Shown here piece after piece: positions 1,345-57,961 of a DNA stretch of 64,000 nt. This stretch comes from Favolaschia claudopus. Taxonomy: Eukaryota > Basidiomycota > Agaricomycetes > Agaricales > Mycenaceae. A program made the translations under genes and the position numbers. The notes beneath the pieces are model-generated. The model did not search any database, was not told the origin of the DNA, and was given only the letters and a program-made list of their open reading frames with translations. The stretch covers positions 372,001 through 436,000 of the forward strand of contig JAWWNJ010000095.1 of the NCBI GenBank assembly GCA_037176885.1, written 5' to 3'. How positions within the stretch are numbered: the stretch's first letter is position 1; every line of letters begins with the position of its first letter.

Positions 1345-1444
1345 CGTGGTGGAGGGAAAGCAGCACTGATGATCAGGTCATTGTGGTCAAAATTTGGCAC
1401 TGCCACCGCCTGCGATCTCTTTCTCTTTCCACCACCTCGAAATC
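1345..1444. promoter_or_regulatory. Bidirectional promoter between head-to-head F-box genes
   Basis: Only 100 bp separate the two divergent start codons, so both 5'UTRs and core promoters must lie here or inside the opposite gene. A pyrimidine-rich stretch (TCTCTTTCTCTTTCC) sits just upstream of the plus-strand ATG. I see no clear TATA box. Confidence 0.5.
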
Positions 1445-3073
1445 ATGAATTCCAGCTACGGTCTCAGCGATCTCTCAGATTCCCCGTTCTACGAGTATCT
1501 GAATACCAACTACATCCCAACTGACTCCCAAATCATCGAAATACGCACCCATTTGATCCCGCACGAGGCTGAGCTGGCGCGAATAGAATCACTCATCGCG
1601 GACCTCACAGCTCAGCGGGCCCGAGTCAAGAGCTATATAGCCCCACACAAAGCTCTAGTCTCGTGTCCTCGCCGCCTTCCAGCGGAACTCGTCGAACAAA
1701 TATTTGTTGATTGCCTTCCAACCGCTCACAATGCGGTGATGAGCGTGAAAGAACCGCCGCTACTTCTGGGACGAATCTGTAGCGGTTGGCGTTCGATTGC
1801 GCTCTCTTCGCCGAAGCTATGGAACTCATTGCATATCTATACACCCTTGATCTCAAATGAGGAGATCGAGGGCGGCGTCACAGAATGGTTGACGCGTTCG
1901 GCCCCGCTGCCCATCCTCCTCTCGGCCCAATACAATCCAATCGCGTACCCAAGGACATACCCCGAAAATGACACTGTTCTTCCCCTGCTAATTCCATTCT
2001 CTGCTCGCTGGTCGGAGCTTAGGCTCACCAGCGTTTCGCGTCATGAAGCGTCCTTGCTGGCAGCAGTAAATGCCCCATTGCTTGAGAGAGTCCAGCTTGA
2101 TTTCCGAGATGACCTTGACGAAGAGGACGGAGAACGACTCTTTCGGTCGCAGATATTTTTCGGACACCATGCACAGAAGATTACTATTGTCTCGCCTAAT
2201 CCAAGTTTTGTTGTGCCGAGCACACATTTTACTCGGGAGCACGTCACCAATCTCACTCTCATCTGGAGACCCTCCTATGACAGCTCGTTGACGGATTCAA
2301 TCCTCAGTGGTGCAACGGCCCATCAGCTCATGAGCAGCTGTCGATCCTTAAAATCGCTCGAGCTTCCCATGTATTGCTCTGGACGCGATCCTATATTCGA
2401 TCCTCCTATGAGCTGTCCAACGCTTGAATCATTGAGGCTGTTGAGCTTTGCCAGCACCTTGACGGCCACGATGTTCTTCCTTGATGGTTTTGTTCTATCG
2501 CAGTTGACCACGCTCCACCTTACGATTTCAGATCAAGATCCCTGGGCCGGCTATGACGACCCATCTTTCATTCGATACATCGAGCGTCTCGGGGTTCGCT
2601 CTCCCTTGATAGCAAATTTGCACCTGGAGTTTCAAGATCGGCCAAACACATTGGCTTTTGTGCGAAACCTTCATGTGTTCTCGCGACTGCAGTGCTTGTA
2701 CTTGGCTCTGTGGAAACCCGGAAATGATTGGTGCAATACCTACGATATTTTGGAGACGGATTTCTTCAAAATTCTTGCTCCCACAGATAAATCGAATGTC
2801 TGCCCTGAATTGAGGGAGCTATCGGTATCCTCCCAAGACTTCAGCGAAGAAGTATGGATGGATTTCCTCCAAGCGAACCTCGATCTCCGTACCAAGTTCC
2901 GCCGACTGCATCTCCAACTTTGGTATCTGTACGATGCCTCGGAAATAAATGTCATCGACGTTTCAGAGTTTCAGAGTCGCGGTTTGGAGGTGGTTGTTGA
3001 ATATACTCGGGTCCCTGTGAACAGTGGATATGCCAATTCACTGTCGGCCTGGGAAGGAATCGAGCGGCACTAA
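1445..3073 (+). CDS. F-box protein, intact
   Basis: Single exon of 542 codons. The chosen start (MNSSYG) is the methionine nearest TNYIPTD; an in-frame upstream Met at 1394 would add 17 unlikely residues that overlap the shared promoter. Residues about 20-66 carry the TNYIPTD motif and the charged helix. Residues about 75-130 hold PRRLPAELVEQIF, CLPTAHNAVM and LLLGRICSGWRSIA, the Skp1-binding F-box of this fungal family. The rest is LRR-like with hydrophobic spacing. It ends AWEGIE, the family's usual [SA]PW.GI-type C-terminus with one change. Predicted role: substrate receptor of an SCF ubiquitin ligase; substrate unknown. Confidence 0.9.
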   Translation: MNSSYGLSDLSDSPFYEYLNTNYIPTDSQIIEIRTHLIPHEAELARIESLIADLTAQRARVKSYIAPHKALVSCPRRLPAELVEQIFVDCLPTAHNAVMSVKEPPLLLGRICSGWRSIALSSPKLWNSLHIYTPLISNEEIEGGVTEWLTRSAPLPILLSAQYNPIAYPRTYPENDTVLPLLIPFSARWSELRLTSVSRHEASLLAAVNAPLLERVQLDFRDDLDEEDGERLFRSQIFFGHHAQKITIVSPNPSFVVPSTHFTREHVTNLTLIWRPSYDSSLTDSILSGATAHQLMSSCRSLKSLELPMYCSGRDPIFDPPMSCPTLESLRLLSFASTLTATMFFLDGFVLSQLTTLHLTISDQDPWAGYDDPSFIRYIERLGVRSPLIANLHLEFQDRPNTLAFVRNLHVFSRLQCLYLALWKPGNDWCNTYDILETDFFKILAPTDKSNVCPELRELSVSSQDFSEEVWMDFLQANLDLRTKFRRLHLQLWYLYDASEINVIDVSEFQSRGLEVVVEYTRVPVNSGYANSLSAWEGIERH

Positions 3074-7285: not shown

Positions 7286-9609
7286 TCAGTTGTTTTTAGA
7301 TCTATTATTCGCCTTCTTGGCTTTTGTTGAGCCACCCAAGGAGCTGAGATAAACTTCCGCAGCCTCCTTCAGGTGCGTCTGCTGTTGGCTACTCAACCCC
7401 GCAAGCGCGTCTAACCGCTCGCATCGCGTCCCAGGGCTATGCGGACAGAAGGTAGGATTGCGATCTATTCCCTTGACCCACTGCATGCGAAGATCGTCGT
7501 TCGGCCAAGCTAGAGCTTGGAGGCCTGACGCAACAAGTGTTGCCGCTAATGTTCTGAAATGCTTTTGGAGCATGAATACGACTTCTTCGGTGGCAGAACC
7601 CCCACCCTCTCGCAGGATAGAAACATTGACCACGTTTGGGACTGCTGGTGCTTTGTTCTTCTTCGACGGCTTCGCACCAGGTGTTTGCAGACTCGGCATA
7701 GTTACGCGGATGGTTCCGCCGAGTGCAATTGCCACAACAATGTGCGTCCCATAGTCCGAGAAGAATTGGAAATAGAGCTGTTTTGTGGCCGGAGACCAGG
7801 GAGGTAAGTCAGAAATGATATTGATCATCTCCTGCGACAGCGCAGGCTTGGACACTGTCTTTATCCCGGTTACGTAGACCGCCGTGTATGTATCGCGATC
7901 TCGCGCGGGGTCACGGCGATCTTGGAGTCGCTCAACAAGCGTCTCCCGATCCCTATCGAAGCGGGTTGCGGGTTCGTTGGGGTTCAAGAGTTGCGCTGAC
8001 GCTTCCTTCAAAGCGCTCGAACGTCCAAATATCTTGGTGACGGGGTTGTACGTTACACCCAGATACAAGTCGGTGAGTTCTTGGATTCTGGCCTTGGTGT
8101 CTACAACAACCGGGGGCTAAGATGTCTAGATTAGATACGACGACCCAGCAATAAACAACAACAGCTCACCCCAACGACATCTACTCGACTCAGCAGAATC
8201 TCTTCTTTGACGTCCCATGGCACCGCGCCGGTCAGAAATTCAAGCGCTTTCATTCCGGCCAAGTCTCGCTTCCCGCGTGGGCCAGGACTCTCTACAAGTT
8301 TACGAATTGCGTCCCACAGATTTTGGTGGCTAAGTTCACCGTTGGGCAGAAAAGGATACGGGTAAGGAACACTATTCCCTCCCCCGTTCTCGATAAAGAC
8401 AATTTGCCACGGAGCCAAGCCAGGAAATACTGCGCGCTGAATTTCCATCAGCAAGTCCATGCGCTTCTGGGACTCGATCTTCCACTGGCGGTCATATTCT
8501 TCCCCTTTGGCCTTCGACAGGTTAGAAATCTGTGGTAGCGACTTCGTGACGACTAGGATAACATTTCCGCGATTGGGATCAACTAGGCATGAATTCGACA
8601 AAGCATATATGGCTTTCCCGGCCGCGGAAGTGAAGTGCTCCGGACTGTTCATGGCATCGGGGGTTATTGTGTCCCAAGCGACAACAACCAGAATGATATT
8701 TGGATAAATTCTGACCTGGCCGGGGAGGGTCTGACGTTCAGCATATTTGTGAAGTAGCGCTGCATTGATTTCTCTGTCATCATAGGTTGTATCCTCGAAA
8801 CCAGGTGTGTCGTCGATCGCCAGTGTATATGAAGATGGTGCACCTTTCACACGGGAGTACAGTTGAATCCGTCGAATGGCCTTCGGAAAGCCGTCAATTT
8901 CAGGTTCAGCACAAGAACGAAATGTTAGTCTGCTTGCCTTGGTCGTTGAGCCCATTGTTTTCTTACCAACGGCCAGGACATTTTGGCCCAGGAGCCTGTT
9001 GATTGTTTTCGATTTCCCGTGTCCAGTGTTTCCGACAAGAAGAATATTCCCTTGCGTCTGGTGCCTTCCCGGGATGGACTGTGCGGCCGGTTGAGCGACA
9101 TCATTCTGTGCTCTGAGTGGCGGTTTCGCGGACTGCAGCTGGCGCACAAAGCTATCTGCCCAGTTCGAGGTACGTTGAAAGTCTGCCACCTGCATGCCTG
9201 CGTTGCATAATTGTGCCCAATTCCGCACCAGAAATTCTCTTGGGGAGGGCAATACGACCCACAATTTGGCAAACAACTGTTGGTCTTTCAATCCGAGAAA
9301 CTGCGTGTTTCTATTGAACGGGAACCCCGTAGATTTGCCGCGCTCGTCGCAATGAGCGAAAACAATGGCGGTAATGTTCTCGGTTTTCCTGCGGTCGCTA
9401 TCAGTGTGAACGTCCACTTCTGGCAGTGGAAACTACCTATTCAATTTCGAAATCTGGTTCCTCGCCCATGCATCAATTTGGCCTACGCTCGGAGCGGAGC
9501 CCGGAAAGAACCACAAGAACCGCTTTGGGAAGTACCAAGAAATGACGCGGGGTGCGGGAGACTTTCCCTTCGCAGTCTTTCCCTTCGCCGAGGACAATTG
9601 GCGGTGCAT
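7286..9609 (-). CDS. GTPase-MACPF fusion protein, paralogue 1
   Basis: Three exons by splice signals and frame: 9609-9437, 9388-8170 and 8116-7286, giving 740 residues. Intron 1 (48 nt, GTAGTT..CTGAT..CAG) contains an in-frame TAG; intron 2 is 53 nt with CTAAT and TTAG. The N-terminal 175 residues are unassigned. A P-loop GNTGHGKS lies at about 177-184, followed by DDTPG (G3-like) and VVTKS in a G4-like position, as in AIG1/Toc-type and related TRAFAC GTPases. Near 580-600, Y..FF.DYGTH followed seven residues later by GG matches the MACPF signature (Y/W-G-T/S-H-[FY]-x6-GG). Inference: a nucleotide switch coupled to a membrane-inserting domain. No signal peptide is seen, so it is probably cytosolic. 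The tail is basic and Asn-rich. Confidence 0.8.
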
Positions 9610-10310
9610 TGCTTTCTCGATCTATAAGACCTCAAGATAATGCAGACCGAATATCTATGTGAAATTAACTCACTGCCATGCCTATCTCCTGTGCGCCTAT
9701 AACACTTACAAAAAAATTTAGCCAAAGCAGAACCTGCTCGAATCTACACGCACATGATGATTCCGTTGCCGATGTTTCCATCTCCACCTTTTGTGGCCAT
9801 GGCTTGCACTGAATGCGTGGTATCTGGCAAGGTCGTCAAGTTTGCTGGACTTTGTGAATTGAGGGTTGAACGGGATGCAAGTATATATTCCCTCGGTTGC
9901 GTGGGTCTGTCGAGCGCCCAGGGCCACTGTGGCTCGCTTCGTACACGAGGGTGGCTGTCCTTGCACACTCTGCACTTCATGACCACGATTCTATTAGATC
10001 CGGTACTTCACGGTCATGAAACCTGGCGGACATGTGCATCACATGAGGTCGCCGATTATCTTGAACCTTAAAGCCCTGCTCATCGAATTTCCTGCACGTG
10101 CTATTGACCGCGCTCGTGTTGGAAGTTCGTTGCAGAAATCAATCCGAACGCCGAAGCGAACTGAACCGGACGCGCGTTCAGCGTTCGAGAAAGTTCAGCA
10201 AAACCGCGAGGTTTTTCGACCACCCGAGATGGCCGACAACGAAAAGGTTCGAGCGAGTTCAAATGCCGCGCCGAACCTGAACGTCGAGTTCAGATTAGGC
10301 TCGAATCCAG
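9610..10310. other. Spacer with GAACCTGAAC-type palindromic repeats
   Basis: There is no gene between the first GTPase-MACPF start and the MITE. Bases about 10145-10300 carry repeated GAACCGGACGCGCGTTC-like and GAACCTGAACGTCGAGTTC palindromes of the type also found at 21.3-22.0 kb. The first part (9610-9760) should contain the promoter of the minus-strand gene. Confidence 0.45.
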
Positions 10311-10311
10311 C

Positions 10312-10663
10312 CTGTGTATGAGGGCGAACCCGTCGATACACAGGCTGGTCGATCTGACTTTGAAATGCCTTGTCAATCGGATTACCAAAAAAGGTTATTC
10401 GCAACTCACCCATTATTCACTCGAATTTGGAAATTTTTGCGCGGTAACTAAGCGGTTTGTATGCCACAATCATTCTGCGCTTATCTGGAGGTCTAATTGC
10501 GAGTTTTGAGAGTGCGGGAGCGAGAATGGTCTATGTTGTTGTTGTTTGTCCGTGACGTCACAGGCTGTAAGCAATAACCTTTTTTGGTAACCGAGATTGA
10601 CGTGGCAATTCAAACTCAGATCGACCGGTCTGTCTATCGACAGGCTTGCCTCCATAGACAGAC
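10312..10663. mobile_element. MITE with long terminal inverted repeats
   Basis: Bases 10312-10400 and 10571-10663 are imperfect inverted copies of each other (about 90 bp). Each contains TTACCAAAAAAGGTTATT or its complement and a GGTCGATCTGA block. Each end also carries a small internal palindrome built around GTCGATA.ACAG. There is no ORF inside, so it is non-autonomous. I could not identify a clean target-site duplication. The arms are too long to be chance. Confidence 0.8.
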
Positions 10664-10680
10664 GGTCACCGGTCTAAGTT

Positions 10681-11580
10681 CAGATTCACGTTCAGCGTTC
10701 GAGGTGCTCGCCTCTCTCCAGCGGCGTGCAGTTATATATTTAGACTTCATTTCCGTGTGCTCGCGTAGAATATTCCCAATGGAACGCAAGCGTTCAGTTT
10801 TGAGATAATTCCGCAAGGCCTGACCTTTCAGGCGCCTTCTCATAGTGACTGAAACCTGGAATCAGTGGAATGCGCGTAAGGTGAGACGAAATGCAGATCA
10901 ATTCACATACCATGCGGATGCGGACCTGTTGCAAGTGCTATCGATCCTGCGCCGGTGAGTCGAGGCGGTGTTCATGGACTAGATTGTTTCATTCCCGACT
11001 CTCCTGAACCTGGATAGTAGTCGGCCGACCTTTCAACCTGCCGCGCCGAAGCCTCGTCTACTAGGTATTGCGAATTGTCAACGGTAATATGTTGTTTATA
11101 GATCAGACCCATCTGATAACCTGAAGTGAAGGTCGTGCAGTTCAAGTGTTAGCGAAGTGGTGACCACCGTCTCCGCCGCGTCTCGATCTGCGGGAACAGT
11201 CGCCCGACTTCCGGAATCACAACTTCTTCATAATTTTGGAGCACCCGCAGTACTATGGCTCGACCTGCGGCCATACTAGCAGTCTCAGGCTCCACGATAC
11301 TCAACACCGCACTTCCTGATTCGGAATTCCCGAATCCTGAGGTACCTAGGTCCTACTGTCTGTCGTCATTCTTCCACCCAGCCTTTGACCTTCAAATGTT
11401 TGGCGCTGGTTGGGTTTTGGCGTTACCTTTGCTTTGCACGTGGTCTGAACATCCCATCAGAACGAAAACCAAATTTCAATTTGAGCTTATTTGGCCTGCA
11501 CGTGTTACGCGTCGTGATGCACTCCCCCAGGTAACCCTTCAAACTACAAGTTGGACTAGGCTTAAGCTCGTCGCTGGAAT
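10681..11580. other. Intergenic stretch, nothing recognised
   Basis: No ORF with a recognisable domain. The first bases (to about 10710) repeat the GTTCAGATTC/GTTCAGCGTTCGAG motif seen left of the MITE. Confidence 0.4.
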
Positions 11581-11587
11581 CCACCCT

Positions 11588-11655
11588 ATGTATGAAGGCG
11601 AGCCCGTCGATACACAACAGGCCTGTCTCCATAGATAGATGGTCACCGGTTCACC
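11588..11655. repeat. MITE remnant: two element ends joined
   Basis: The sequence reads directly from a left end (TATGTATGAAGGCGAGCCCG..CGATACACA) into a right end (CAGGCCTGTCTCCATAGATAGATGGTCACCGG). The outermost bases of both ends of the 10.3-kb MITE are present with no interior. Confidence 0.65.
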
Positions 11656-12157
11656 CTTGAGGCTTGGATGCAACTTGGTTACTTGGATGTCTCGGTCCTC
11701 GCCGGGCTTGACTCCTCAGCCGAGTTACTGCTCTGTCAGTCTGCTCAGTGCGCCATGTACGTACGCGGCCCTCTTTATCGAGATCCTCGACCGTTCGTCG
11801 ACTGAAGAACCCGTGGTACCATGGTGTCTTTCTTTCGCCGGCGCGAGCTTACTTTGACATTGACGCCGGTTTGACGCCCATAACGTTCTCGGAATCTATG
11901 CCTGCTTGGCATGCATGTCGTGCCTGCCCAAACACGCCCTTTGGCAACTGCTATCGATAACCAAAATTATCCTCAACACATTCGCCGCACCGATATGACT
12001 GTAAATCTCGGTTCTACTTTCGCTGAGCTTTCAATTTTTTTGCCTAAATCTTCTAGCTCTTGCGCACGAGTCGACTGTGCAAATTACAACTTACTCAAAA
12101 TCTGGGTATCCACTCCAGATACATACTAATTCATTCTCTGGGTCAGTCAAGCGCTCG
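11656..12157. other. Upstream region of the second GTPase-MACPF gene
   Basis: No gene recognised. It should contain the promoter of the gene at 12158/12287; no clear TATA box is visible. Confidence 0.4.
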
Positions 12158-14405
12158 ATGGATCGATCCTTCAAAAATATATACTCACACGAAGGAGGAC
12201 TTAAGTAAGTCCAGCATGTGTGATGGGGGAGGTGCAGGCAATAGCTGCTAACCCTTCCACTGGCATCGCCCAACTTCACTGTAATAATGTCAACCCAAAT
12301 TTTCAGCAACCAATATGACGACGTAGCCACCGAAACTGGACGGCATGCTGGGCAGGCCGTCGTGTTACTCGTAGGCCATAGCGGTCACGGAAAATCGACC
12401 ACAATAAACCGCCTTGTCGGTACAGATCTCCTTGAGGTCGCTGAAGATGGCTCTGGATCAACGACTAAGGTGCGCAGGATTACTTGAACTGTTTTTTCCC
12501 TTTTTCCTTTTGAGATGTACCATTGCGCCCTAGGTCATACAACGAGTAGAAGTCAAACACACCAGCACTCAAAGTGGCGTAACCGTGAATATCGCCTTTG
12601 ACGATACGCCCGGAGACTCTGATACGGTTTTTGCGGACGGCGTCGTAAACTACAATGTTATGGACGTCTATAAATCCCGCCACTTTCCGGATACAGGCGG
12701 AGCCTCTGGTACTTCAATCTATCCCAACGTGATTCTGCTGGTAGTTTCTTGGGATTCGGTTGTCGAAGATGCCCATAACGCTCCTGGTTATTTCACCTCT
12801 GCCGCTGGGAAGACCATGCAAGCGTTATCATCGTCTGGTCTCGTTGACCACTCGCGACCCAATGTCGTTGTCGTTGTGACGAAGTCCATGTCCTCATGGA
12901 AGGATCTGGTCGACGACACGGAGGACTCCGGACTTGATCCGAGGGACAGCTGGATGCTCCAGGCGCAAACGCGCAAAGACATAATTGTTGGTCTTCAGCG
13001 TAAAATTTCTCCTGCGATACCCACCGCCTGGGATGTCGTGTTCGTAGAGAATGGGTGCACGCGTGAGGCGGCATACCCAAGACTTCCCAATGGTGAATGG
13101 AGCCATCAAAATCTATTCGATGCTATCTCCAAACTAATCCGCCGACCTGGGGCCCACGGGCGAGCTGATTTCGGGGGCATGCATGCGCTGGATTTCCTGA
13201 CTGGCGTTGCGGTTGAGGAAACCCGAGCCCAAATCAAAACTCGAGTCCTCGTCTCTAAAGACGACCTGATTGGTTATAACAGAGCTCACAACCGTCCTTT
13301 CGGAAGCCCCGTTGCGCGGCCCAGTCGATATCAAGCTTTGACTACCAACTTGAAAGAACAGCAGATTGCCGAAGAGTTCCTGGGTGTCACGTACAATCCA
13401 CTATCTGGCACCTTCGGACGATCCTGTGTGCTGGATTTGGGTGACTCGGACGTAAGATTTACAGGCGGACGGGACTGTCAACAAGAGGATTTTGTGAAGG
13501 AGTCTGCAGATGAAAATGCAGTCAAGTCGGCCACTGCGTCAAAACTACAAATCAAGTTTTCTATCCCAGATCTTGTCACACTTGATGCCTATTGGCACGG
13601 CGCAGCGGGCGAGAAATTCGCATCTCACAAACAGTCAATCGTGTATGTAGCCCAACATACCACCCGGGTTATAACGGTTTCTGCTCTGAAGCCTAAGCTT
13701 TCACAGGAAATGCTCGGCATCATTTCTGACCTTGGGAGGTGGACTGGGGGTCCTTCCTCACGAGAAAAATATTATGACTTTTTCTCCAACCATGGAACAC
13801 ATGTTGTTCTTCGACTAGCTCTGGGTGGGAAACTCCGGATTGCTAGATGGGATGACACAAAGAACGCAGGCCAACGAAAAAAGCGGGAATTCGGTGCGGG
13901 AATGAATTTTCCCAAGTTCCCTTTCGGCGGCAATGCGAAGCATACGAAGAATGAAGGGGTAGATGACACTCAGGGTGATATACGTGTCCGCATATCTCGT
14001 GAGGGAGGAGCAGATGTTGCTCAGGACTTGACGGACGTGCTAGAGACCCTAGCCAGATCTTCGACTTCAGCAGATCTCTCCGCCGACAAGCTCGAATGGC
14101 CGAATGTTGACATTCGCAAGAAGTGGATTTCTGCATTGCAGGTGGAGCCAGCCTTCTGTCGCGGCGCTGAAGACACTGGATACATGGAGATTTGTTCCCT
14201 GGGTGGTCTTGAGCTGAGGCAAACAAACGATCTCAGAGATGCCTTGAAATCCTATCTCACGACACGCCATGACAAGCAGAACGAAAGCCCAGCATGGGGA
14301 GCGGGTGGTGGTCAGAAGGATGACATGAACAGACAGCGCAATCATCGGGGCGTCATGAACTGGTTTCACAAGATTTTCACTGGTAGAAAAGGACATAAAG
14401 TGTAA
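12158..14405 (+). CDS. GTPase-MACPF fusion protein, paralogue 2
   Basis: The core model is exons 12287-12469 and 12534-14405 around a 64-nt intron (AAG|GTGCGC..CCCTAG|GTC), giving 684 residues. An alternative 5' end uses exon 12158-12204, donor GTAAGT at 12205 and acceptor TTTTCAG at 12306, which stays in frame and replaces the first seven residues with 16 others. With the short start the P-loop GHSGHGKS is at 30-37, DDTPG at 84-88 and VVTKS around 176-179. Y..FF.NHGTH followed seven residues later by GG (about 475-493) is the MACPF signature with His for Tyr before GTH. The C-terminus is basic. It lacks the roughly 140-residue N-terminal extension of the divergent paralogue at 7286. Predicted as a GTP-controlled pore-forming or membrane-acting protein; target unknown. 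Confidence 0.8.
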
Positions 14406-19286: not shown

Positions 19287-20934
19287 CTACTCGATACCAT
19301 CCCACGGCGTAACATTTGGTGTCTCAATTAGACCGTAGTTCACCACCACGTCGAGACCCTCGGCCAGGAACTCAGATACATCGGGATATTCCGATACAGG
19401 CTCTTCACGCCAAAGATGAAGCCGAAGGCGACGGAAACAAGTTCGCTGACGAATATGCGATTGAAGATAATTCTCCCACACGACCTCTGGAAAATCTTCC
19501 GTTTGCAGGGATAGCTCCTCTAGTAAAGGGACAGGTTGGGGACAGGGTTCGTTTCGAAGTCCATTCCCGGGTCCGGATCAAGAATGCTGAATAGATAGTC
19601 AAGTTCGAATTCGCCGTCGTCCGTGTAACGCTCTTCCATGGGTGTGAGTCGTGTCCACAACACAATGCCGAGTGTTCGAACATGGTGGAAGGAATGGAGG
19701 GCACAAGGAGGGCACGGATAATGGAAATTGTGGACGAGATGTCGGAAAGGTCCAGGTGGATGTCGCTGATGCTCGGAGAACGAGCTGCAAGACGATCAAG
19801 GACCAATATATCCAAGGGATCTGACTGCCAGGAATCATTAGTATTGACGAGTTGCAACGTTATCAACTCGGGCATGGCCACGTGGTCGATGAAATTCGAA
19901 ACCAAGTCAGAAAACCGAGTTCGGTTTTTGAGGCTCAAGGATTCAAGACATGGTGCAATCAGCAGATCGTTAGCCGCTTGTCCCTGCCCTTCAAATTCGG
20001 CAACCACGGAGAGTGCCAGCACTTTCAATCGCGGACAGCCTTTTAACAATCTGATTGTTGCGTCCAAGTTCAAAGGCCCAATCCCGCCTCTCAATTCCTT
20101 CAGTGTCAGACTCGTGATATGATTCCAGATGAATGATGTGACGGGCACGAGCAATGAAGGCCATTTAATGGCTATTGAGATCTTTTGTTGGTTTCCTCCA
20201 AGCAATATTTTTGAATGCAGAATGCCAGTGGAGACTGGGTGACGATCGCCTTGCACGAAGTCGTCGCTCCCAAAGTTAATCTGCACGTCCGATAACAGAG
20301 GTGCATCTACATTGGCCACCCGCCAAAACACTCCCTGCCGAATATTGGAAAGTCGCAGTATGGACCAACGCGAGGAGAATGGAATCAAGGTATCGATCAG
20401 AGTGGCAGCGTAAAAATCGAAATCAAAGTCGTATGGATCAGGGTCGTTCCAGTGAGCTGAGATTGCGAGTGGAAGCACCGAGGCCCTCGTCAGCCAATCG
20501 GTGATGGCGGTGGGCATCCCTTCGCGATCCACCAGATCCGCAGATATGTGCAAGGTATTCCAAAGACCGGGCAGTGAGAAAGCAATCGACCGCCATCTGC
20601 TACATATCCGTCCCAAGAGCAATGGAGGTTCACTCGCACTCATCGCTGCGTTGCGCTGCGTAGGAAGACAAGCAAGGAATATTTCTTCGACAATATCCTG
20701 CGGTAGGCGTCGAGGATGTGAGATCAAAGCTTGATGAGACGCTACATAGCGCTTGACCCGGTCTCGCTGAGAGGATAGGTCTCGAATGAGTGCATCGAGG
20801 CGAGCGAGCTCTGCTTCATGCGGTAGCAGATGAGCACGGATCGCGCCGATCTCAGCGTCGGAGGGAATATAATTCGTATGGAGGTGTTGGCGAAACGGGG
20901 AAGGGTTCAGGTTTTCTGCGTCGAGGGGGTCCAT
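19287..20934 (-). pseudogene. F-box gene broken by two 11-bp tandem duplications
   Basis: The start MDPLDAENLN, TNYIPSD, charged helix, PRRLPQDIVEEIF, CLPTQRNAAM and LLLGRICSRWRSIA are intact. The frame then breaks twice. GGAGGGCAC is repeated with an 11-bp period at 19696-19715 and GGGACAGG with an 11-bp period at 19528-19549 (plus-strand sequence). Mentally removing each 11-bp unit restores family-like sequence across the site, and the proper C-terminus (LRLHLW..., ending PWDGIE) is found in another frame ending at 19287. As it stands translation would run out of frame to 19405 (509 residues). The N-terminal F-box could still be made. Confidence 0.85.
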
Positions 20935-21336
20935 GCAAGATTGTCAAATAGCGGTTTCTTGGACAGTGATGGGTGGGAACGAGGAGCGATTTCCTCTTTT
21001 GGACGATGACTGTGCTCCTCCGGTTTGCGAGCTTTAGATGGAAAACATGCGACTGGCCAGCATAATTAGCATGTATGCAATTCGAGGAGCGTGTATTCAT
21101 AGTTCCGAATGAGGCGACTCGGACGACACACCGTGACATTGTGAAGTAATCTGGAGATATTATCGGTAGACATACTCGTCTGATTTGCTGCAAAGAACGG
21201 AGGGAACAGTCGCGGAGAATGTGAAAACTCGAAGTTGGAGCAGTTTCAATCCCAAGCTTGACGACGCGGTTGGGATCTGGATGTCTCGGACCGGGAATCG
21301 AAGAGATCATGTCCAAAGCGAGGATCAAATCATTGT
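20935..21336. other. Upstream flank of the F-box pseudogene
   Basis: Should hold the former promoter; no gene or repeat recognised. Confidence 0.4.
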
Positions 21337-23082: not shown

Positions 23083-25660
23083 ATGTCGTCGACGGTCTTC
23101 AAGTTTCCGACCAGCCTTCTCGTCTGCCTTGTCCTGTTCGGGGCTTCAGTCCTCGCTCAAGGCTCGAGCAGTATCCCGAACTCATTTCCCCATGCATGGC
23201 CAGGTCAACCTCACGATGATTTTAGTTCCGAGTGGCAAAAATGTCAGTTCTATCGATCTCTATGTGCGTTGAACAATTTGAATTCCGACGACACAGATTT
23301 TGAAGTAACCGAAAAACTACCCAACATAACCGGTACCCTATCACGCAGTTTCGCGGGAAATATTCCCGTCAATCGCGCCGGCCATCCAAATAACACCCTC
23401 TTCTTCTGGGCATTTGAACATGCAGGAAATAATGGCTCGCTCACGGCACCGGCAGAGTCGAATAATACAGATCCGTGGTTTATCTGGTTGCAGGGCGGGT
23501 GAGTGCTGGTTTCATACAAAAAAAAAGTCAATCTATTGACTGCAATTTTTCAATCCAGTCCGGGCTCGTCTGGAATGATAGCTCTGACCACAGAGGTACA
23601 TAATATCGCAAATTTTTCCACTTAACATTCTGGGTAATTCGATGATAGAACGGTCCTATCCACATACAACCGAACGGCACTTGGTTCATCAATCAGTTCA
23701 GCTGGCATACTCTAGGAGATGTAATTTGGGTTGATCAACCGGTCGGTGAGTTTTTCCCTTCCGCGATCCTGATTGGATTTTTTGCTTGATTTCTACTAGG
23801 TACTGGATTCTCGACGTCAGATTCGAAAGGCTATGGTAAGTCGTTTTTCCTATAATGTTAATCATACTGAAGGCTGCCTATACAGTTCCTGACGAAGATC
23901 AGACTGGTGAAGATTTCGTATGAGATTGTCATAGCATATACAATGCTCCCACTCAGAATACTGCCTCGTAGGTCGGTTTTCTATCGAACCTCATCAAAGT
24001 ATTCCCGAGCCTGGCAACCCGACCGCTTTTCTTGACGGGAGAGAGCTATGCAGGGACATATATCGTGGGTTGAATAGGTTTGAACCCGCAGTTCGAATTG
24101 GGCAAGCTTACGTTCGTCTAGCCCTACATCACAAAGCACATCTTCCAGACTGCGAAACCACCTGTCAACCTGAGGAAAATCGCTATCGGCGATGGTTCGC
24201 TGGGATCACAAGCCACAGTCGAACATCTTCCCGTCGTAAGTTTTCATCCACACTATCTTCTTCCACACATCTCCAACTAAACCGTCAATAAGGTGAATGT
24301 GATCGAAACGTACCCAGTTCTCATAGGCTACGATCCTGAAGTTTTTGATTTTTTCCGAGAGCAGTGAGCATCTTCTCTATCAATCGCCATTGTACGGCTC
24401 ACTGACTCGATATACATTCCTTTAGAACTCATCTATGCGGATTTGATTTAAATCTCACGTATCCTCAAACTGGCGGAACTTTTCCTACGCTCAACCTCGT
24501 CAGACCCACCGGAAATTCAGCACTTCTCAACCCGACGGAGGATCGGGCCAAGACACTGCGGGACTCTGTTTCCGCTAAATTCGTGGGGACTCACAGTGAA
24601 GACGCATTCTCCAAGCGAGACAAACTGTTCGAAAGACGGGAAGCCGGAATACAGAAATGGAAGCGGGATTTGGCTGGACGCGCAAATGGAACGATTGACC
24701 CGTTCTACGGCTGCTCTTTGTTGGACGAGCTGATCGATTACGCGGTCAATTTCACCTTCCCTTGGAGTGAGCATCTGCTCAGATGTAAAGAAATCTCCGC
24801 GCTCACCGACTCCTTAACTTCTAGCGAACGGAGAGTTCGACGTATATGACATTCCGGACGCGACCAACCCCGAGCCCTTCAAAAACGCCTCGACATTCTT
24901 CAATGACGACAGAACCCGCGCAGCGCTGCACGCTCCAACGTCCAAGGACTGGATTCGAAACTTCAATTACCCATTCGGCTCGGTTCACAACCGCTCGATT
25001 GGAAACCAGTACGGTGACCCCTCCGTCGAGCCGATCGCCTTCCTTTCCGAGCTCGCAGCAAACGCAACAGCAAAGAATGTCTCGATTGTCTTTTACTCGG
25101 GCAACGATGACTCGCTCGTTCAGCATCGCGGGACGGAGGTCATCATCCAAAACATGACGTTTGGAGGCATACAGGGTTTCACAAGAAAGCCATCGACTCC
25201 CTGGTTTGATGACGATGGAAATTTTGCGGGGATCGTGCACCAAGAACGCAATCTGACCTACGTACTTTTTGACGGGGCGGGTCATCTTGTGCCGATGTGG
25301 AAGCCCGCGCAAGCGCTAGTGTTTTTGAGAGAGTTTGTGTTGGGGTCCAATCCAAATGGCACGGTGTTGGGGAATAGCACCGTGGTTGGAGGAGAGAATG
25401 CAACGCTTGCGAACGATTTTTTGCCGGGAGGGGACGAGGTATTTTTCGGGAACTCGACGACCGCTGGGACTTCAACTATCCCTGCGGCGACGAGATCCGC
25501 GTGGGCTTCATTCATTGCCACGGCGACTGCTTCGGTTCCCGTTAGCGCGAAGGCAGATGCTAATGATGCTACGCGATTAATAACGCGAAAATTGAAATTG
25601 ATGGATCTGGCGGCGGGATCTGTGCTGGTGTGCCTGATTGCAGGAGCCATGATACTGTAA
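23083..25660 (+). CDS. Secreted S10 serine carboxypeptidase, probably membrane anchored
   Basis: Ten exons by splice signals and frame: 23083-23498, 23559-23595, 23649-23745, 23800-23835, 23886-23917, 23972-24064, 24122-24235, 24293-24363, 24426-24766, 24825-25660; 690 residues. S10 enzymes remove C-terminal residues from peptides. Residues 1-25 are a signal peptide. FIWLQGGPGSSG, WVDQPVGTGFS and GESYAGTY (nucleophile Ser at about 231) are S10 hallmarks; the acid is in YSGNDD (about 507-508) and the His in GAGHLVP (about 566). Many N-x-S/T sites suggest glycosylation. A Ser/Thr/Ala-rich stretch and a hydrophobic end (LAAGSVLVCLIAGAMIL) suggest a GPI signal or C-terminal membrane span. It looks fully functional. 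Confidence 0.9.
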
Positions 25661-26231: not shown

Positions 26232-27873
26232 TCATCTATCCTTGATCCCCTGCCACGGTGACCCTTTAGACGGAAGCCGAATGCAATTCTCGACGGAAAC
26301 ATCGAGACCGCGAGTGAGGAATGGGTCGACATCCGGAAAGGCAGGCGGCGGTTCAGAAGTATCGCAACGATGGGGAGACCACAGTTTGAGATGAAATTTG
26401 CTGAGTCTGCTGTGGTGGTTTAGGTGCTTCCATAGAAACTCCATCCATAACGCGTCCGGTACGTATTCCAGATCCAAGGACAATTCCGTCAGGTCAAGCC
26501 CTGGAATCACGACGCCGTCCGGAGCAAGATTTTGAAACAGCTCATCTGCTCTGAGAAACTTGGACACATATGGGTAAGCCTCGCCGGCGAGCCCGAGTGA
26601 AAGTTTTTGAAGATGCGGGGAGAAATTGGCGAGAACGGTGTGAAGAGTTTCGACAGTGTCGTCATGTGGGAGATGGAGCCTGAGGTCTGATATAAGAGGG
26701 AAGTTTTCAGCCAGGAGTTCGAGTGACTCGACGGTGGCAGGGGACGTATAATCCAGAAATTCGAGGTTTATCAGATGAAACTTCGTCAGCTTGGGCATCA
26801 CAAGCTGGTCAACGAGCTCTTCTAGGCCTTCGCACTCCGAACCGGCCACGATGAGGGTCAACGATTCGAGAGCCGGAACTTCGAGAGTCTGGGTCAACGT
26901 GTCTCCGAGCGCAATCGGGACCGTGAGCGAGCGTAAATTGATGCAGCACTCTAGAAGCCGGTACACCGTTTCGTAGTCCAGGTATCTGTAGGTATTGTGG
27001 TCGTCCCAGTCTGGCTCACTGGGTCCCAGCAGATCCAGGGTGAGATCTGTGAGATGTTCCCATCGATAACTGGGATCTTGCAAACGCTCTAGAACTAGAG
27101 ACGCAGGATCCAGTGAAGTGACACTGACTCTGGTGCCGCTGAAAAGTTTAGAATCGAGGATGTGGCCGTGTCCCACAACAGAGCCTGACGATCGGCAGGT
27201 GATGTGAACATCTCTGAGAAGCGGTGCGTCAACCGTTTCTTCGAGTTGTAAAAATGACTGTATCGGAAGATCGATGTACTGGAGCGAAGTCCAACGCGCC
27301 GAAAATTGGGTCAAGAGGCGGAGGGAGGCCTTGCAATAAGCGTGTGCATAGCCCAGTGGATCACGGCAGGAGATGGACAGCGAGAGTGGAAGGGGGGCTG
27401 AGCGTGTTAACCAGTCAACGATGGCGGCTGACTTGTTTTTCGTATGAATTATGTAATTTTCCACGGAGACGTGGAGGGAGGCCCACATTTTTGGCGTATC
27501 AAAGGCAATGGCTCGCCAGCGGCTGCATATGTGGCATAAGAGTAGCGGTGCTGCTGCGACGCTCATGACAGCGTTATGAGTCGTCGGAAGGCATTCAACG
27601 AATATTTTTTGGAGCAGTTCGGGAGGGAGGCGACGGGGATGAGATACGAGAGCTGCATGCACGTCGATATAGTGTTTTATTCGATCCCGTTTTGCATTGA
27701 GGTCTCGAATCAGCGCGTCCAAACGCAAGCTCTTCTTCGTGTGGCGCGAGATGACTGCGGATTTGGGCTATGCCAGCATCTGTGGGTATATAGTTGGTGT
27801 GGAGGAGCTCGTTGAATGGTGACTCAGAGACGACGGGCTCAGCGCGGACGCCCGGGCCGTTTGTCGACTTCAT
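26232..27873 (-). pseudogene. F-box gene with an early 2-nt frameshift
   Basis: The N-terminal frame starts at MKSTNG (27873) and reads through SESPFNELLHTNYIPTD to APHEEELA, then breaks at about 27725-27729. The remaining roughly 495 residues (LDALIRDLNAKRD.., PRRLPPELLQKIF, CLPTTHNAVM, HICSRWRAIA, C-terminus PWQGI) continue in another frame to 26232. Comparison with the family suggests loss of two bases (a CG or GC) between GCTTG and CGTTTGG. The downstream part is otherwise clean, so the lesion is recent, or a downstream start is used. It is divergent to the fragment at 27972, 98 bp away, like the other head-to-head pairs. Confidence 0.8.
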
Positions 27874-28605: not shown

Positions 28606-29191
28606 ATTTCCTTTTCATGATGGGTGAGCTGTATTCTGCAGATGCTTTCAATGAGTCTGATACTTGTCTTGTTTTTTTTCAGCAATTATCTCTTTCGGAG
28701 ATAAATGTCGACGCAAATATCCAATCGCCCAAGAACGGAGGTGTGCGTATTCAGATTACCTTTGACTGCTTGGTAAATTTTTGAGTTCCAGCTAAATCGC
28801 CTAAACCATCTCTCAACCGCACGATTCAATGTGTATCTTACATTAGGAATTAGAATCACTCGAAAGGATAGGGTGGGACACAATTCGGAAATTCGTAGTT
28901 ACTTGAGTCTAAGCTGCGTTGCACCGACTCACTTTTGACTTTAACGCGCTAAACTAATTACACTTGGTTTCAACCTGTCGCCTACAGTTACCGCCGGCCC
29001 GATCGTAGCAGCAGTGAGTCTGATTTCGGTGTACGAGACCGACTGATAATATTCTTTATAATACTCCTCCTCCGCCGATTCTTGGCGTCCGCCCCAAACG
29101 CTGATTACACCGCGTCACCACAAATGTACTGGGGATCCGGAATCCCCCAAAATTCGGACAATCTTGCAATTCCAGCTCTGCCTCTCATACC
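28606..29191. other. Shared 3' flank and hydrolase promoter
   Basis: 28606-28840 is the inverted counterpart of 55990-56210 (flank of the paralogous F-box gene). A+T-rich TATAATATTC..TTATAATA around 29045-29065 may serve the hydrolase gene at 29192. Confidence 0.5.
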
Positions 29192-30027
29192 ATGTCGAAC
29201 CCAACCAAACCCACAATCATAATAATCCCCGGCTCTTTCTGTGCTCTCTCCCAATACGAGTCCGTGATCAATCAACTCAAGTCCCATGGCTACCCGGTTG
29301 AAGGGGTAGAACTCGAAACCATCGGGCCGCGGGACAACGCTCCGACCCTGTACGATGACGCCGCAAGTGTTGCAGCGCTGGCGACTCGACTCGCGGATGA
29401 AGGCAAGGACGTTGTCCTAGTTCCGCATTCGTACGGCGGGCTCGTAGCGTGCGAGGCATCGAAGGGCTTAGCAAAAAGCGTGCGCGAGAAGGAAGGGAAG
29501 AATGGCGGCATTTCGAGGATCGTTTTTGTGACCTCCGTCATTGGGCGGATTGGGGAGAGTCTCAAGGATATCATGGCCGGCGAAAATGACTTGAACTATA
29601 TTCGTGTCGAGGTGCGCAACTCTACTTTCTATTACATGTTCAACAACTCATCCAATGTGTTTATAATTATCCCAAGGGCGAATACATGTTCATGGACCCC
29701 GCCAGCTGCGCCCCGGTCGTCTTCTCAGATTTACCCTTAGACCAGGGAATATTCTGGTCGGCCCAAATGCCCTGTCACTCTGCTATTAGCTTTGCGCAGA
29801 AATTGACTTACGCGGCGTACAAAGACATACCGACGTCTTATCTTCAAGTTTGTGAAAGGGACAAGTGCATTTCTCCCAGGCTGCAGAACAAGATTATTGC
29901 AGCGCTGGATAGCCAGAGTGATTTGAAGGTGGAGAGGCATTCGGTGCAGGCTGATCATGCAATTCATATAACGCAGCCGAAGGCTGTCGTTGATGTCGTT
30001 CGGAAAGCTATTGGGGACGTGGAGTAG
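29192..30027 (+). CDS. Alpha/beta hydrolase of the methylesterase-like type
   Basis: Two exons, 29192-29611 and 29677-30027 (intron 65 nt, GTGCGC..CCAAG), giving 256 residues. The N-terminus IIIIPGSFC is the first strand and oxyanion loop. PHSYGG holds the nucleophile Ser at about 80. PTSYLQVCERDKCISP is the penultimate strand and acid region, and ADHAIH carries the His at about 234. Size and layout fit small fungal hydrolases related to AB_hydrolase_6 and plant methylesterases. No signal peptide, so cytosolic. Substrate unknown. It sits inside the left duplication arm but has no copy at the corresponding place near 55.9 kb, so it was inserted here or lost there. Confidence 0.8.
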
Positions 30028-31900: not shown

Positions 31901-33505
31901 TCACTGATCTCTGCGATCAATGCCTCCCCACGGTGTCGCCCGAAACAAGTCCTCATCGACCTCATAATCGACGGAGACGACAAGCCCAGCTTCTACAAAC
32001 TCTGCCAAATCAACTGCTGGAATCTCATCCGCAGAATCAACCCAAAGCCCAAAGCGCACTCGGCTCAGACTAGTACGGTGATCTATATGTCCACGAAGAA
32101 ATTGTGACCATGTTTCCTCGACGATGAATCGTGTTTCCAGAGAAAAGTCTCGCAGTGCAGGAACTGGGTTCGATGGCGAGCCTGCGGCAATGACAGCGAA
32201 GAGTTCATCCTCGTCATAGTCTGTGATGAACCCATGGTTGTCGGGCGTCCATAGGACTATGCTGAGCTTCGATATGTGAGCCAAGTGTCTGAGGCCGCAT
32301 AACACATCAACTGTGCTCGAGCAGCTTGGCAGTTCCAACTCGATCTCAGATATGAGAGGTGAACGGCCAGTAAGCCGCTCAAAGACCGAGAGTTCCACAG
32401 GATTCGAGTATAAGTACCGAGGGGTGTTGACAAGATGGAACCTGGTCAGCTGCGGCATGACCAGGTTGTCAATGAAGTTGTGGAATACCTCCGATGTCGT
32501 GGAATCGTTTCTGATGCTCAGCACTTCGAGAAACGAGAGCTTGAGCGGTTCAATCTCGGGTTCAGCGACCCCGACGGATATGGGGACCCGAAGCGATTTC
32601 AAGCGCGGACAGCCTTCGATGAGCCTGTGAGCTGTAGCCATGTCAAAGTATCCCTCCTCAGCCGCATACGAGTCGGATGAATCTGCCCGCGCAAAGCTGA
32701 GATCCGTGATATGACTCCAGGTAAATCGTGTCGTTGGCACGAAGAACGGTGGATTTACTGTAACCACAGATATATGACATTGCTTTTGGCCCAATAAGAA
32801 CCTAGAACCCAGGAAAGGCCGTTCTGGGTCTTCCTCAAAATCATCTCGGAAATGGATTTCTACATCCGATAAAGCAGGGGCGTCTTCCGCTGCTAACGAG
32901 CGCAGTGCCGATTTTGAGGGCTTGTAGAAACACAGGGTAGACCAGTATGAGGAGTGTTGAGTCAGAATATCGACGACAGCCTCGTCGTAAAAGCCAAGCC
33001 CATATGCATCGCTGCCGCGAATGGAGATCGAGAGGGGGGATGGGGATGCTCTGTTCAGCCACTCATCGATGGCAGCCACCCGCTCTTCATACAAGCAGGC
33101 GTAGCCCAGATGAACGTGTAAGGACGACCAAAGCCTCGGAAGAGCAAACGCGATCGACCGCCATCGGCTACAGATGCGTCCCAGAAGCAGTGGAGGCTCA
33201 GTGGAGCTCATGACGGCGTTATGAGCAGTCGGAAGGCACGCATTCAAGATCTCCTCAAGGATCTCCTGCGGGAGACGGCGGGGGTGAGAGATCAAAGCTT
33301 TGTGCGAGTCTACGTAGTCTTTCATTCGGTCTCGTTGAGCGCAGAGATCCTGGATGAGCGTATCGAGACGGGCGAGCTCTGCCTCGTGTGGAAGGAGATG
33401 AGCACGGATCTGGCTGATCTCTGGATCTGTAGGGATGTAGTTCGTCTTGAGATGACTTTGGAAGGGCGATTCGGGCGAGATTTGTGCGTTTTCGCTGGGA
33501 TTCAT
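31901..33505 (-). CDS. F-box protein, intact (cassette A)
   Basis: 534 residues from MNPSENAQIS at 33505. The frame is open further upstream, but that part overlaps the SDR 3' end and is not conserved. Features: TNYIPTD, a charged helix, PRRLPQEILEEIL, CLPTAHNAVM, LLLGRICSRWRSIA, an LRR-like body and the C-terminus TPWGGID. The N-terminal type MNPSENAQ..SPESPFQSH groups it with the cassette C (54102) and D (63248) genes. The SDR pseudogene ends 147 bp upstream on the same strand. Confidence 0.9.
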   Translation of the reverse strand: MNPSENAQISPESPFQSHLKTNYIPTDPEISQIRAHLLPHEAELARLDTLIQDLCAQRDRMKDYVDSHKALISHPRRLPQEILEEILNACLPTAHNAVMSSTEPPLLLGRICSRWRSIAFALPRLWSSLHVHLGYACLYEERVAAIDEWLNRASPSPLSISIRGSDAYGLGFYDEAVVDILTQHSSYWSTLCFYKPSKSALRSLAAEDAPALSDVEIHFRDDFEEDPERPFLGSRFLLGQKQCHISVVTVNPPFFVPTTRFTWSHITDLSFARADSSDSYAAEEGYFDMATAHRLIEGCPRLKSLRVPISVGVAEPEIEPLKLSFLEVLSIRNDSTTSEVFHNFIDNLVMPQLTRFHLVNTPRYLYSNPVELSVFERLTGRSPLISEIELELPSCSSTVDVLCGLRHLAHISKLSIVLWTPDNHGFITDYDEDELFAVIAAGSPSNPVPALRDFSLETRFIVEETWSQFLRGHIDHRTSLSRVRFGLWVDSADEIPAVDLAEFVEAGLVVSVDYEVDEDLFRATPWGGIDRRDQ

Positions 33506-33651
33506 GATTGTGTCGTTGTGGTGAGAAGAAAGATGGATTACTATTTTTGGCAATTGTAAACGTGTCGCGATTGCGTAGATCCGCCGCATTTCGTCGATCT
33601 CGTTCCCGCATATCGTACAATAATACATCGTGGCCCCGTACGCATTCGCAT

Positions 33652-34634
33652 TCACGCCATTCCCTGCACGAAAAACACGTCAGCCATGTCCAAGCAAGCA
33701 AACACAGTCCACTCACCCCATTAACCCTCAAATTCTGTCCATTCACCCACCCCGCCCCCTCACTCGCCAAAAACCCCACCACCTCCGCCACCTCCTCCGC
33801 CCGCCCCAGCCTCGCCGCAGGAGTCGCTTTGACAAATCGCTCGATAACCTCCTGCATCTGCGCCTCGTACAAATGAGGTACATCGACGGGGCCGGGGGAG
33901 ACGGTGTTGACGGTGATACCTCTAGTGCCGAGGTCCTTGGCAAGGATGCGCGAGAGCTGCTCGATGGCGCCTCGCGTGGCGGTGTATACAAGACTGTTGG
34001 CGGGGATGCCTAAATCGATGGATAGATGGGCTTTGGTGAGGTGAAGAAAAAAGAAGATTGAAACGTACCACTATCGGCAGTATTACTGGTCGAGAAGAAT
34101 ATAATCCGCCCACCTGCTATGAGCAAATCACGCCATCAGCCCCCACCCAGAGACACGAACGAATTCAAAGAAACACGCACGACTAGGCAACAACGGCGCC
34201 GCCGCCTTCGCAAGAAACAGCGGCCCCTTGACATTCTCCGCAAAATGCGCATCAAAGAACTCCTCCTCCACATCCTTCAGCACGTTCATACGCATCACCG
34301 CGTGATACAACACCAGCACGTCGATCCCGCCGAACGCCTTGACAGCTTCGTCGACGAGGTGCTTCCCGCCCCTCGACGGTGGATACGTCAGCCTTGACGG
34401 CGACGGCGGTACCACCGGCGGACGTGATGACCGAGACGACCTCACCGGCGGCGGGGGCGTTGTCGACGTTGGCGTAGTTGACGATGACTTTTGCGCCTTG
34501 ATAGGCCATGTGCTTGGCGGCGGCGGCGCCGATTGAACGGTAGGCGCCAGTAATGACCACCACCTTTCCTGCAGAGAAGTGTTAGATTCGGTTCTTTGGA
34601 GGAACGGAAAGGGAAGCGTGCCGTTGAGAGACAT
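33652..34634 (-). pseudogene. SDR (short-chain dehydrogenase) with one frameshift, cassette A
   Basis: Five exons are readable: 34634-34622, 34568-34181, 34116-34068, 34009-33717 and 33663-33652. Joined, they start MSLNGKVVVITGAYRSIGAA (Rossmann glycine motif) and end LRVNGGMA, as SDRs do. One extra base at about 34363-34375 in exon 2 (GAGGGGCGGGAAG) breaks the frame compared with cassette B. The active-site Y-x-x-x-K is Y-T-A-T-R in both copies, and the usual NNAG is LYHAV, so catalysis is doubtful even before the break. Intron 1 has a GC donor (GCACGC). Confidence 0.8.
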
Positions 34635-39539: not shown

Positions 39540-40041
39540 GGCGCCTGGGACCGCTATGGATGTTGTGTTCAGAGAGAGAAAGTGGAGTTGGTCACCGCCC
39601 GACTAAACCCGACTGTCGGAATAATCGGTGATACCATCAGCTGGGGCGGGAATTGATGATATACAAGAGCAAGCAACCGCGACACGCTTCGCGCTCGTTC
39701 TTTTTCGACGCGTTTTCGCGCGTGATTCGTGAAGGATCGGGTAGCCCGATGAAACTGCACAATTTTTGCTTATCACGCGCCCCTCTCTTCTTACTACCGC
39801 TTTGCAGCTGGCTCTTACTCAGGATCAGTCGCCTCTTCAAGTGAGTCAATATATACAGATTTCGTTGCTCGATTCTAACATCAAATGTACAGGTACTATC
39901 AAGAATAGCAATCTTTCGAAAACCTCGTTTAGAGTCCAAGATATGTCAATCATTTTCCTCTTCCGAGCCACCTTCCTCGCTCATAATATTCGACACAGTG
40001 CATTTTACCTTGCCCGAATTGTTGACAGAGCCCGCTACTGC
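39540..40041. other. Spacer between two tandem F-box genes
   Basis: 39540-39640 resembles the promoter at 57823-57961 (CGGGTTTAGTCGGGCGGTG..). 39800-40040 is the inverted counterpart of 50293-50510, the 3' flank of the cassette B F-box gene. No gene is seen. Confidence 0.5.
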
Positions 40042-41631: not shown

Positions 41632-41869
41632 AGCCTTTGTTGTCGTTGTGAGAAGGAAGAAAAAAATTACGTACCATTTCTGGCAATATGTAATCAAGTG
41701 CATGTTGGAAACTGTAGACAATACCAGGCGACAGGAAGACTGGAGCCGCAGCACTGAATTCTCTTTGGATATGTTCACCTCGCTTTCTCTACAGATACCC
41801 TACATACATTTAGACGCAGCATCAACAACTTTCGACTTTTACCTCACCAAATTACAATTACATTGCAAA

Positions 41870-48558: not shown

Positions 48559-48684
48559 TTACTCCCGTGTAGTTTACAATAATGAGCCTCTGTATCCACT
48601 GTCTTCCATGATTAGTAGCACGCAATCAACGATTGCCAAAAATAGTAGCCGTTTTTTTTCTTTCTCACAACGACCACAAAGGCT

Positions 48685-53689: not shown

Positions 53690-54050
53690 AGAGCCACTCA
53701 CAAACGTGTTGGACGAGGTTTCTGTCGGCGGAGATGACCCGTCTAATTGTTTATCGACGTGTCCATCCTGCTTGACGTGTCCTTTGATCTCTCTCTTCCC
53801 ACTCTTCTCTCTAGACCGAAACTCTACTGCAACAGCCTTATGAAGGTAGTCTACGACGACTTTGATCTCAATCGCCTGCAGAAACTTGGTTTTTGTGCTT
53901 TCGTCCGACTCGTGTGAGCGAGAGGGAAATCAATTTACTCAATTTACTCAGTGCTGACTAGAGGGGTTAAGAACCATTCGGCGCGGCTGGCCTAAGGGCA
54001 CTTTGAAAATATCTCAGCTCAGTTCTTGACGGAATGCGGCGGATTCACGA
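53690..54050 (+). repeat. Near-identical block, copy 1 (cassette C)
   Basis: From CTCTAGACCGAAACTC (about 53810) to GGAATGCGGCGGAT (about 54043) it is identical by eye to cassette D (about 62952-63187). It contains a possible terminal exon (LMKVVYDDFDLNRLQKLGF..) after a TCTCTCTAG acceptor, ending in TGA at 53915. It lies directly upstream of the F-box gene and so includes its promoter. Confidence 0.65.
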
Positions 54051-54101
54051 GAATTGCCAAAAATAGTCATCGATCTTTCTTCTCACCACGACGACACAAT
54101 C

Positions 54102-57822: not shown

Positions 57823-57961
57823 CGTCGTTGACGTCAATGAAGAGACAATCCTTGGCTGAGGCGTATCACCGATAATTCCGATACAGTCGGGTTTAGTCGG
57901 GCGGTGGCAACTCCTTCTTTCTTCTTCACTCGACACCACATCCGTAGCGCTACCAATATCC
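57823..57961. promoter_or_regulatory. Bidirectional promoter of the third head-to-head F-box pair
   Basis: 139 bp between divergent start codons. Part of it (CGGGTTTAGTCGGGCGGTG) recurs upstream of the gene at 39539, inverted, so promoter and gene were copied together. Confidence 0.5.

Follow-up and report, generated by a model that had tools for sequence, protein, structure and literature searches.

A divergent pair of predicted AIG1/Toc-like G domain-MACPF fusion genes and their mushroom relatives with full, shortened, and absent membrane-inserting segments

MACPF proteins are familiar mainly as attackers that cells export, and a divergent gene pair on mushroom contig JAWWNJ010000095.1 (positions 372,001 to 436,000; the whole 64,000-nucleotide stretch analyzed is termed the window) raises the question of whether such a domain may also be held inside the cell under a nucleotide switch. 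The two genes, A and B, each encode a predicted P-loop switch domain of the AIG1/Toc type (G domain) followed by a MACPF domain in one chain. The reading preferred here, given a probability of roughly 0.48, is that the locus specifies a cytosolic nucleotide-switched MACPF system in which B could form pores and A would be a partner that does not insert. Judged from sequence, the architecture belongs to a large mushroom family, many members of which lack the membrane-entering parts. A preliminary description of the locus had named no characterized protein with this architecture and, consistent with this, no fungal GTPase-MACPF fusion was found described in the open-access literature searched.

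The divergent pair was present at the coordinates first proposed for it, intact and with introns, and its stop codons ended at 7286 (A, minus strand) and 14405 (B, plus strand). Gene A (7286–9609, minus strand; 721 aa) was assigned the exons 9609–9437, 9388–8938, 8880–8170, and 8116–7286 in a splice model based on comparison with its relative P0029 and with an uncertain start codon; the three predicted introns were, in order, GT-AG (48 nt), GC-AG (57 nt), and GT-AG (53 nt). The probable GC-AG intron (8881–8937, minus strand) lay directly after the GSTTK motif, the same position as the intron of B, and stayed in frame when unspliced. Reading through it added 19 residues that were absent from F. 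claudopus P0029 and overlapped a stretch of the structural model (143–165) with a predicted local distance difference test score (pLDDT) below 50, and once it was removed A scored 31.0 bits on AIG1 instead of 25.2. Gene B (12287–14405, plus strand; 684 aa) comprised the exons 12287–12469 and 12534–14405, with a single GT-AG intron of 64 nt directly after GSTTK, and the 61 residues of exon 1 were 100% identical to P0001 of Favolaschia claudopus by tblastn, which points to Favolaschia or a near relative, perhaps F. claudopus, as the source of the window. The region separating the predicted starts (9610–12286) spanned 2677 bases. A and B shared 34% identity in an alignment of 628 positions; in the preferred reading they are old paralogues within the mushroom family.

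Three protein searches returned 105 distinct relatives (P0001–P0105) from 19 species; by a hand count of record names these were 16 Mycena species, F. claudopus, Phlegmacium glaucopus, and Dendrothele bispora, Mycena and Favolaschia accounting for 101 of the 105 and Mycena rebaudengoi for 20. Two of the searches scored just the approximately 8000 candidates with most shared words, so that both family size and taxonomic range are lower bounds. In an alignment of 60 rows (58 relatives and two pieces of the window), MACPF was matched in 58 rows and AIG1 in 56 (E ≤0.01). A pattern scan of 107 proteins (the 105 relatives with A and B) identified a relaxed MACPF signature in 94, a P-loop in 98, and both in 87, and in all 87 the P-loop and the MACPF signature stood in the same order. 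This recurrence in 87 of the 107 proteins, together with the placement of G3, G4, and the MACPF domain and signature of B in one uninterrupted 623-codon frame, makes a gene-model or assembly artefact in which two genes were read as one very improbable. MACPF without a G-domain match occurred in P0067, P0104, and P0105, and the G domain without MACPF in P0042 and P0101. Separately, P0084 (Mycena venus) carried a protein kinase domain in front and P0076 (Mycena latifolia) a DDE transposase domain behind, each of which may be a fusion or a merged gene model. The relatives were mostly recorded as "hypothetical protein," "MACPF domain-containing," "G domain-containing," or "protein hedgehog"; the last name, given to several of them, was not adopted, as no Hint/hedgehog profile occurred among the 20 Pfam families matched by the 60 rows.

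The switch domain was recognized from motifs, profiles, and predicted structure. A P-loop and a DxxG-type G3 were present in both proteins: in A (minus strand) GNTGHGKS at 9010–9033, GSTTK at 8952–8938, and DDTPG at 8800–8814, and in B (plus strand) GHSGHGKS at 12374–12397, GSTTK at 12455–12469, and DDTPG at 12600–12614. Both spliced proteins passed the Pfam cut-off of MMR_HSR1 (27.2 bits for A and 26.2 bits for B; cut-off 21.9), spliced A also passed that of AIG1 (31.0 bits; cut-off 27), and the predicted structure of the first part of A matched Toc34 and GIMAP2, that is, the AIG1/Toc/GIMAP fold. The AIG1/Toc-like P-loop domain originally suggested from the letters was thereby upheld. The family differed from AIG1/GIMAP and Toc34/Toc33 proteins in its additional MACPF domain, in the AIG1 score of spliced B (25.6 bits, which misses the cut-off of 27 by 1.4 bits), and in its G4 motif, VVTKS at 8539–8553 in A (minus strand) and 12873–12887 in B (plus strand), from which the Asp was absent. 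An alpha/beta region N-terminal to the G domain of A (9063–9387, minus strand) was common to the long relatives by tblastn and alignment and formed strands and helices in the model; no counterpart was found upstream of B. Many relatives open with a strand and a Gly-containing loop, which had given rise to the idea that this region of A was a second, degenerate P-loop domain; the idea was rejected because the region, compared by profile with the G domain of the family, reached a probability of 1.7.

The MACPF domain was identified in both genes with a Pfam profile (PF01823; 39.6 bits for spliced A and 30.1 bits for spliced B; cut-off 21.5), which scored 42.2 (A) and 30.3 bits (B) on the exon pieces. 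From LGVTYN to the stop codon, the domain and C-terminus covered 7286–8062 in A (minus strand) and 13380–14405 in B (plus strand). The perforin/MACPF signature first noticed from the letters, GTH followed after seven residues by GG, proved correct in both and, with these profile scores above the cut-off, is no product of chance; the pattern scan placed it at 7715–7774 in A (minus strand; GTHIVVAIALGG, equal to YFQFFSDYGTHIVVAIALGG) and at 13770–13829 in B (plus strand; GTHVVLRLALGG, equal to YYDFFSNHGTHVVLRLALGG). Sequence searches of the PDB were weak: the G domain matched GIMAP4 alone, at E 0.015, and the three chains returned for the MACPF part, at E about 0.86, were not convincing, so that structure comparison was needed. 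The model of exon 2 of B, the frame that also holds G3 and G4, contained a MACPF fold over about residues 272–588, which is what a structure check of the proposed fusion was expected to reveal; it matched perforin, TgPLP1, C8, and pleurotolysin B as well as Astrotactin-2, and a gasdermin fold was not among the structure matches listed.

A and B thus share a Pfam family, the GTH-x7-GG signature, and a fold with the MACPF domains of perforin, TgPLP1, C8/C9, and pleurotolysin B, but differ from the perforin type in that the domain lies behind a P-loop switch, that a hydrophobic N-terminus is missing, and that across the family the regions of the transmembrane hairpins (TMHs) are highly variable and often absent. 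The highest mean of 15 residues near the start on the Kyte-Doolittle scale was 0.85 for A and 0.77 for B, in agreement with the lack of a signal peptide claimed beforehand, at the level of a plain hydropathy test and an uncertain start codon in A. The likeness to pleurotolysin B with its aegerolysin partner might suggest that A and B are secreted cytolysins directed against other organisms, with the G domain as a decoration; this is improbable given the absent hydrophobic N-terminus and the general expectation that a nucleotide switch works inside cells, where nucleotide is plentiful, although no search for an aegerolysin was made.

Whether the family could enter membranes was addressed through the two TMH segments. 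In pleurotolysin B, the membrane-spanning TMH1 hairpin corresponds to residues 128–147, according to the portion of the source consulted (PMC4318580). TMH2 length was taken in the pattern scan as the number of residues from the signature GG to the next GG, with values corrected by eye for P0005, P0008, P0028, P0068, P0079, P0091, and P0093 (the last by one residue), in which the pattern had ended early or late. Lengths clustered near 14–20, 26–27, 34–50, and 56–62 residues, and in the group with the fewest residues a beta-strand appears to lead directly into the following one, so that no insertable segment is left. After omission of P0046, P0067, P0104, and rows without a value, 85 of the 107 rows were classed as full (≥55; 24 rows), mid (30–54; 22), or none (<30, including the 26–27 group; 39). 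In the full class, hydrophobic and polar columns of TMH1 alternated over eight positions, a regularity equalled in 0 of 2000 column shuffles (21 of the 24 rows, without P0001, P0060, and P0094). Alternating runs of at least eight occurred in 20/24 full, 3/22 mid, and 2/39 none rows, and shuffles gave longest runs as high in 0/200, 104/200, and 199/200 cases, respectively; the run of P0060 sits outside TMH1. On a G-domain tree of 89 rows (18 of the 107 skipped, the G piece being incomplete), TMH2 class required 6 changes against a shuffled-label mean of 33.5, and on a tree of 86 rows, also without the long rows P0057, P0060, and P0064, 5 changes against 32.3, a clustering that is expected of related sequences and in which the counts cannot separate loss from gain.

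Within this series, B was a full-class protein, with a TMH1 region (13527–13628, plus strand) that includes the alternating strand KLQIKFSI and a TMH2 region (13830–14009, plus strand) of 56 residues ahead of REGG, with FGAGMNFPKFPFGGNAKH at 13890–13943. Protein A was reduced: it had no alternating TMH1 run, and its TMH2 position (7601–7714, minus strand) was cut to a short basic linker of 34 residues ahead of REGG. Among A-type proteins (the clade of A, defined below) the TMH1 strand was gone just in the A of the window and P0029, and the Mycena members P0020 and P0021 are among the non-full rows that reach a run of eight, so that the loss in A probably occurred within the Favolaschia lineage. 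The earlier label of "pore former" is supported in part: B keeps an alternating TMH1 and a 56-residue TMH2, but A is without the TMH1 run and 61 of the 85 classified proteins have a TMH2 below 55. The last 50 residues were basic, with a net charge of 6 in B and 4 in A and class means of 6.1 (full), 5.2 (mid), and 2.9 (none) against a background of 0.15 (standard deviation 3.2). In B they include the segment MNRQRNHRGVMNWFHKIF (14325–14378, plus strand), a predicted helix at residues 600–616 of the exon-2 model that could be a possible membrane contact.

Several of these results weigh against a nucleotide-gated pore. The Asp of NKxD was found in none of the 96 proteins, of 107 scanned, in which the G4 pattern was located (TK-x followed by L, M, or another residue), so that the motif does not itself specify guanine. 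TMH2 alternation in the full class was not significant, being suggestive at most (matched or exceeded by 139 of 2000 shuffles; 21 of the 24 rows), and the TMH2 of B was shorter than in its Mycena relatives (56 versus 60 residues) and modeled mostly with pLDDT below 50. The helical moment of the C-terminus in the full class (1.58) was near background (1.48, standard deviation 0.29) and below that of the none class (1.84), and a membrane-binding C-terminal helix is accordingly kept as a possibility. Finally, with shorter TMH2 segments in 61 of the 85 classified proteins (39 of them below 30), the family as a whole cannot have pore formation as its function.

These figures bear directly on the main rival explanation, that the MACPF domain serves family-wide as a non-lytic platform for oligomerization or membrane docking, the proteins being membrane-organizing or signaling switches, as are Toc, GIMAP, and mitofusin-type proteins, and the TMH sequence of B a relic. 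The frequency of short TMH2 segments, the missing TMH1 strand of A, the poorly modeled TMH2 of B, and the presence among the structure matches of Astrotactin-2, a MACPF protein not known to us as a pore former, all agree with such a platform; against it, the full class keeps its alternating TMH1 strand beyond shuffles and full-length TMH2 segments also occur outside the Mycenaceae (60 residues in Phlegmacium P0016 and 59 in Dendrothele P0060, although the alignment shows no TMH1 strand in P0060). The class-specific TMH1 pattern thus speaks against a non-lytic platform for B-like members and the many members without TMHs speak for it elsewhere, and as an account of the whole family it is considered unlikely.

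The second question posed by the locus is whether A and B form a conserved pair. In the tree of 86 of the 107 rows, A grouped with P0029, P0020, and P0021 and B with P0001, P0002, and P0003, each clade with support of 100/99, and the same three named genomes (F. claudopus, Mycena sanguinolenta, and Mycena capillaripes) each contributed one row to both clades. The longest contig was identical for P0002 and P0020 (1,477,733) and for P0003 and P0021 (2,490,782), and the members of each of these couples are probably on one contig. It is also possible, at less than even odds, that A and B are no more than two members of a family that is clustered and expanding, their adjacency having no functional meaning. 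Two observations count against pairing and agree with this alternative: F. claudopus P0001 and P0029 lie on contigs that differ in size, and the chance of shared contigs in both Mycena genomes was about 0.09 (7/15 × 4/21 same-contig pairs, counted by hand over six proteins of M. capillaripes and, in M. sanguinolenta, the seven named C8R45DRAFT, with two MSAN proteins from a different assembly excluded). Furthermore, if the window derives from F. claudopus, the clades represent three genomes and not four. What argues the other way is that both strongly supported clades contain the window together with a single row per genome from these three. Since the family is clustered and chance sharing reaches about 0.09, the pairing is a lead and not a result. 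A two-gene nucleotide-switched MACPF system conserved in mushroom cells, with B as a TMH-bearing executor and A as a TMH-less co-subunit or regulator within a Mycenaceae family that repeatedly sheds or gains hairpins, is put forward tentatively, as less likely than not. As a side observation, P0001, the closest relative of B found, has a gene model without G3 and the TMH1 strand and is either a decayed copy or wrongly modeled.

Fungi couple switches to membrane executioners via NLR-HeLo and gasdermin systems, and the preliminary description compared the pair with STAND and gasdermin cell-death systems. The likeness is in logic alone, a switch coupled to a membrane effector, the switch domain being different and the effector fold apparently so. 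The profiles gave no sign of a STAND relationship: NACHT and NB-ARC were not matched at E ≤1 in spliced A or B, and nSTAND_NTPase5 was matched by B at E 0.07 (13.4 bits against a cut-off of 34) and at E ≤0.01 in 9 of the 60 rows. A further comparison is offered by the CARD-AIG1-HINT proteins of lancelets and a few fungi (PMC12373286, in the sections available), which resemble the mushroom proteins in the fusion of an AIG1-type domain to other domains in animals and fungi; those sections do not mention a MACPF fusion, and the mushroom rows have no Hint/hedgehog profile.

Switch domains of the AIG1/Toc34/GIMAP type pair or oligomerize on nucleotide binding. In the cytosolic system preferred here, such a domain would control the C-terminal MACPF domain of the same, probably cytosolic, chain, in which the two domains and their order were observed directly. 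Nucleotide binding would pair or oligomerize the switch domains and thereby might align the MACPF domains, and the basic C-terminus may help B to dock on the acidic inner membrane leaflet. With TMH1 and a near-full TMH2, B could then insert as a beta-barrel and permeabilize the cell or an internal compartment. With no TMH1 strand and a basic linker in place of TMH2, A would be unable to insert in the usual manner, and it may act as a partner, regulator, or sensor of B, much as in paired immune receptors.

The remainder of the window contained nine long open reading frames (ORFs) with an RRLP-type N-terminal motif (1373–3073, 19405–20943, 26232–27767, 31901–33679, 37953–39602, 40042–41799, 48649–50292, 54030–55607, and 56947–58026) that resemble an expanded F-box-like family; among the five scanned, the sole Pfam F-box-like match was at 26235–27767 (E 0.0001, below cut-off). 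Two ORFs at 34128–34769 (minus strand) and 47165–47803 (plus strand), alike by eye and with the same opening residues, appear to duplicate a short-chain dehydrogenase region, with a weak adh_short match below cut-off at 34131–34769. A serine carboxypeptidase S10 fragment (24818–25657) and an alpha/beta hydrolase (29105–29737) were also identified.

The size of the family, with 20 of the 105 relatives found from M. rebaudengoi alone, suggests a role in recognition, conflict, or defense, and the pair may have a part in cell death, recognition, or defense. With TMHs that are full, shortened, or missing on a common scaffold, the family offers a natural series for testing how a MACPF domain functions once the hairpins are gone and whether a beta-barrel pore can be gated by the binding of nucleotide. 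If the preferred reading is true, these mushrooms would possess an intracellular GTPase-gated perforin, a further fungal way of coupling a switch to a membrane executioner.

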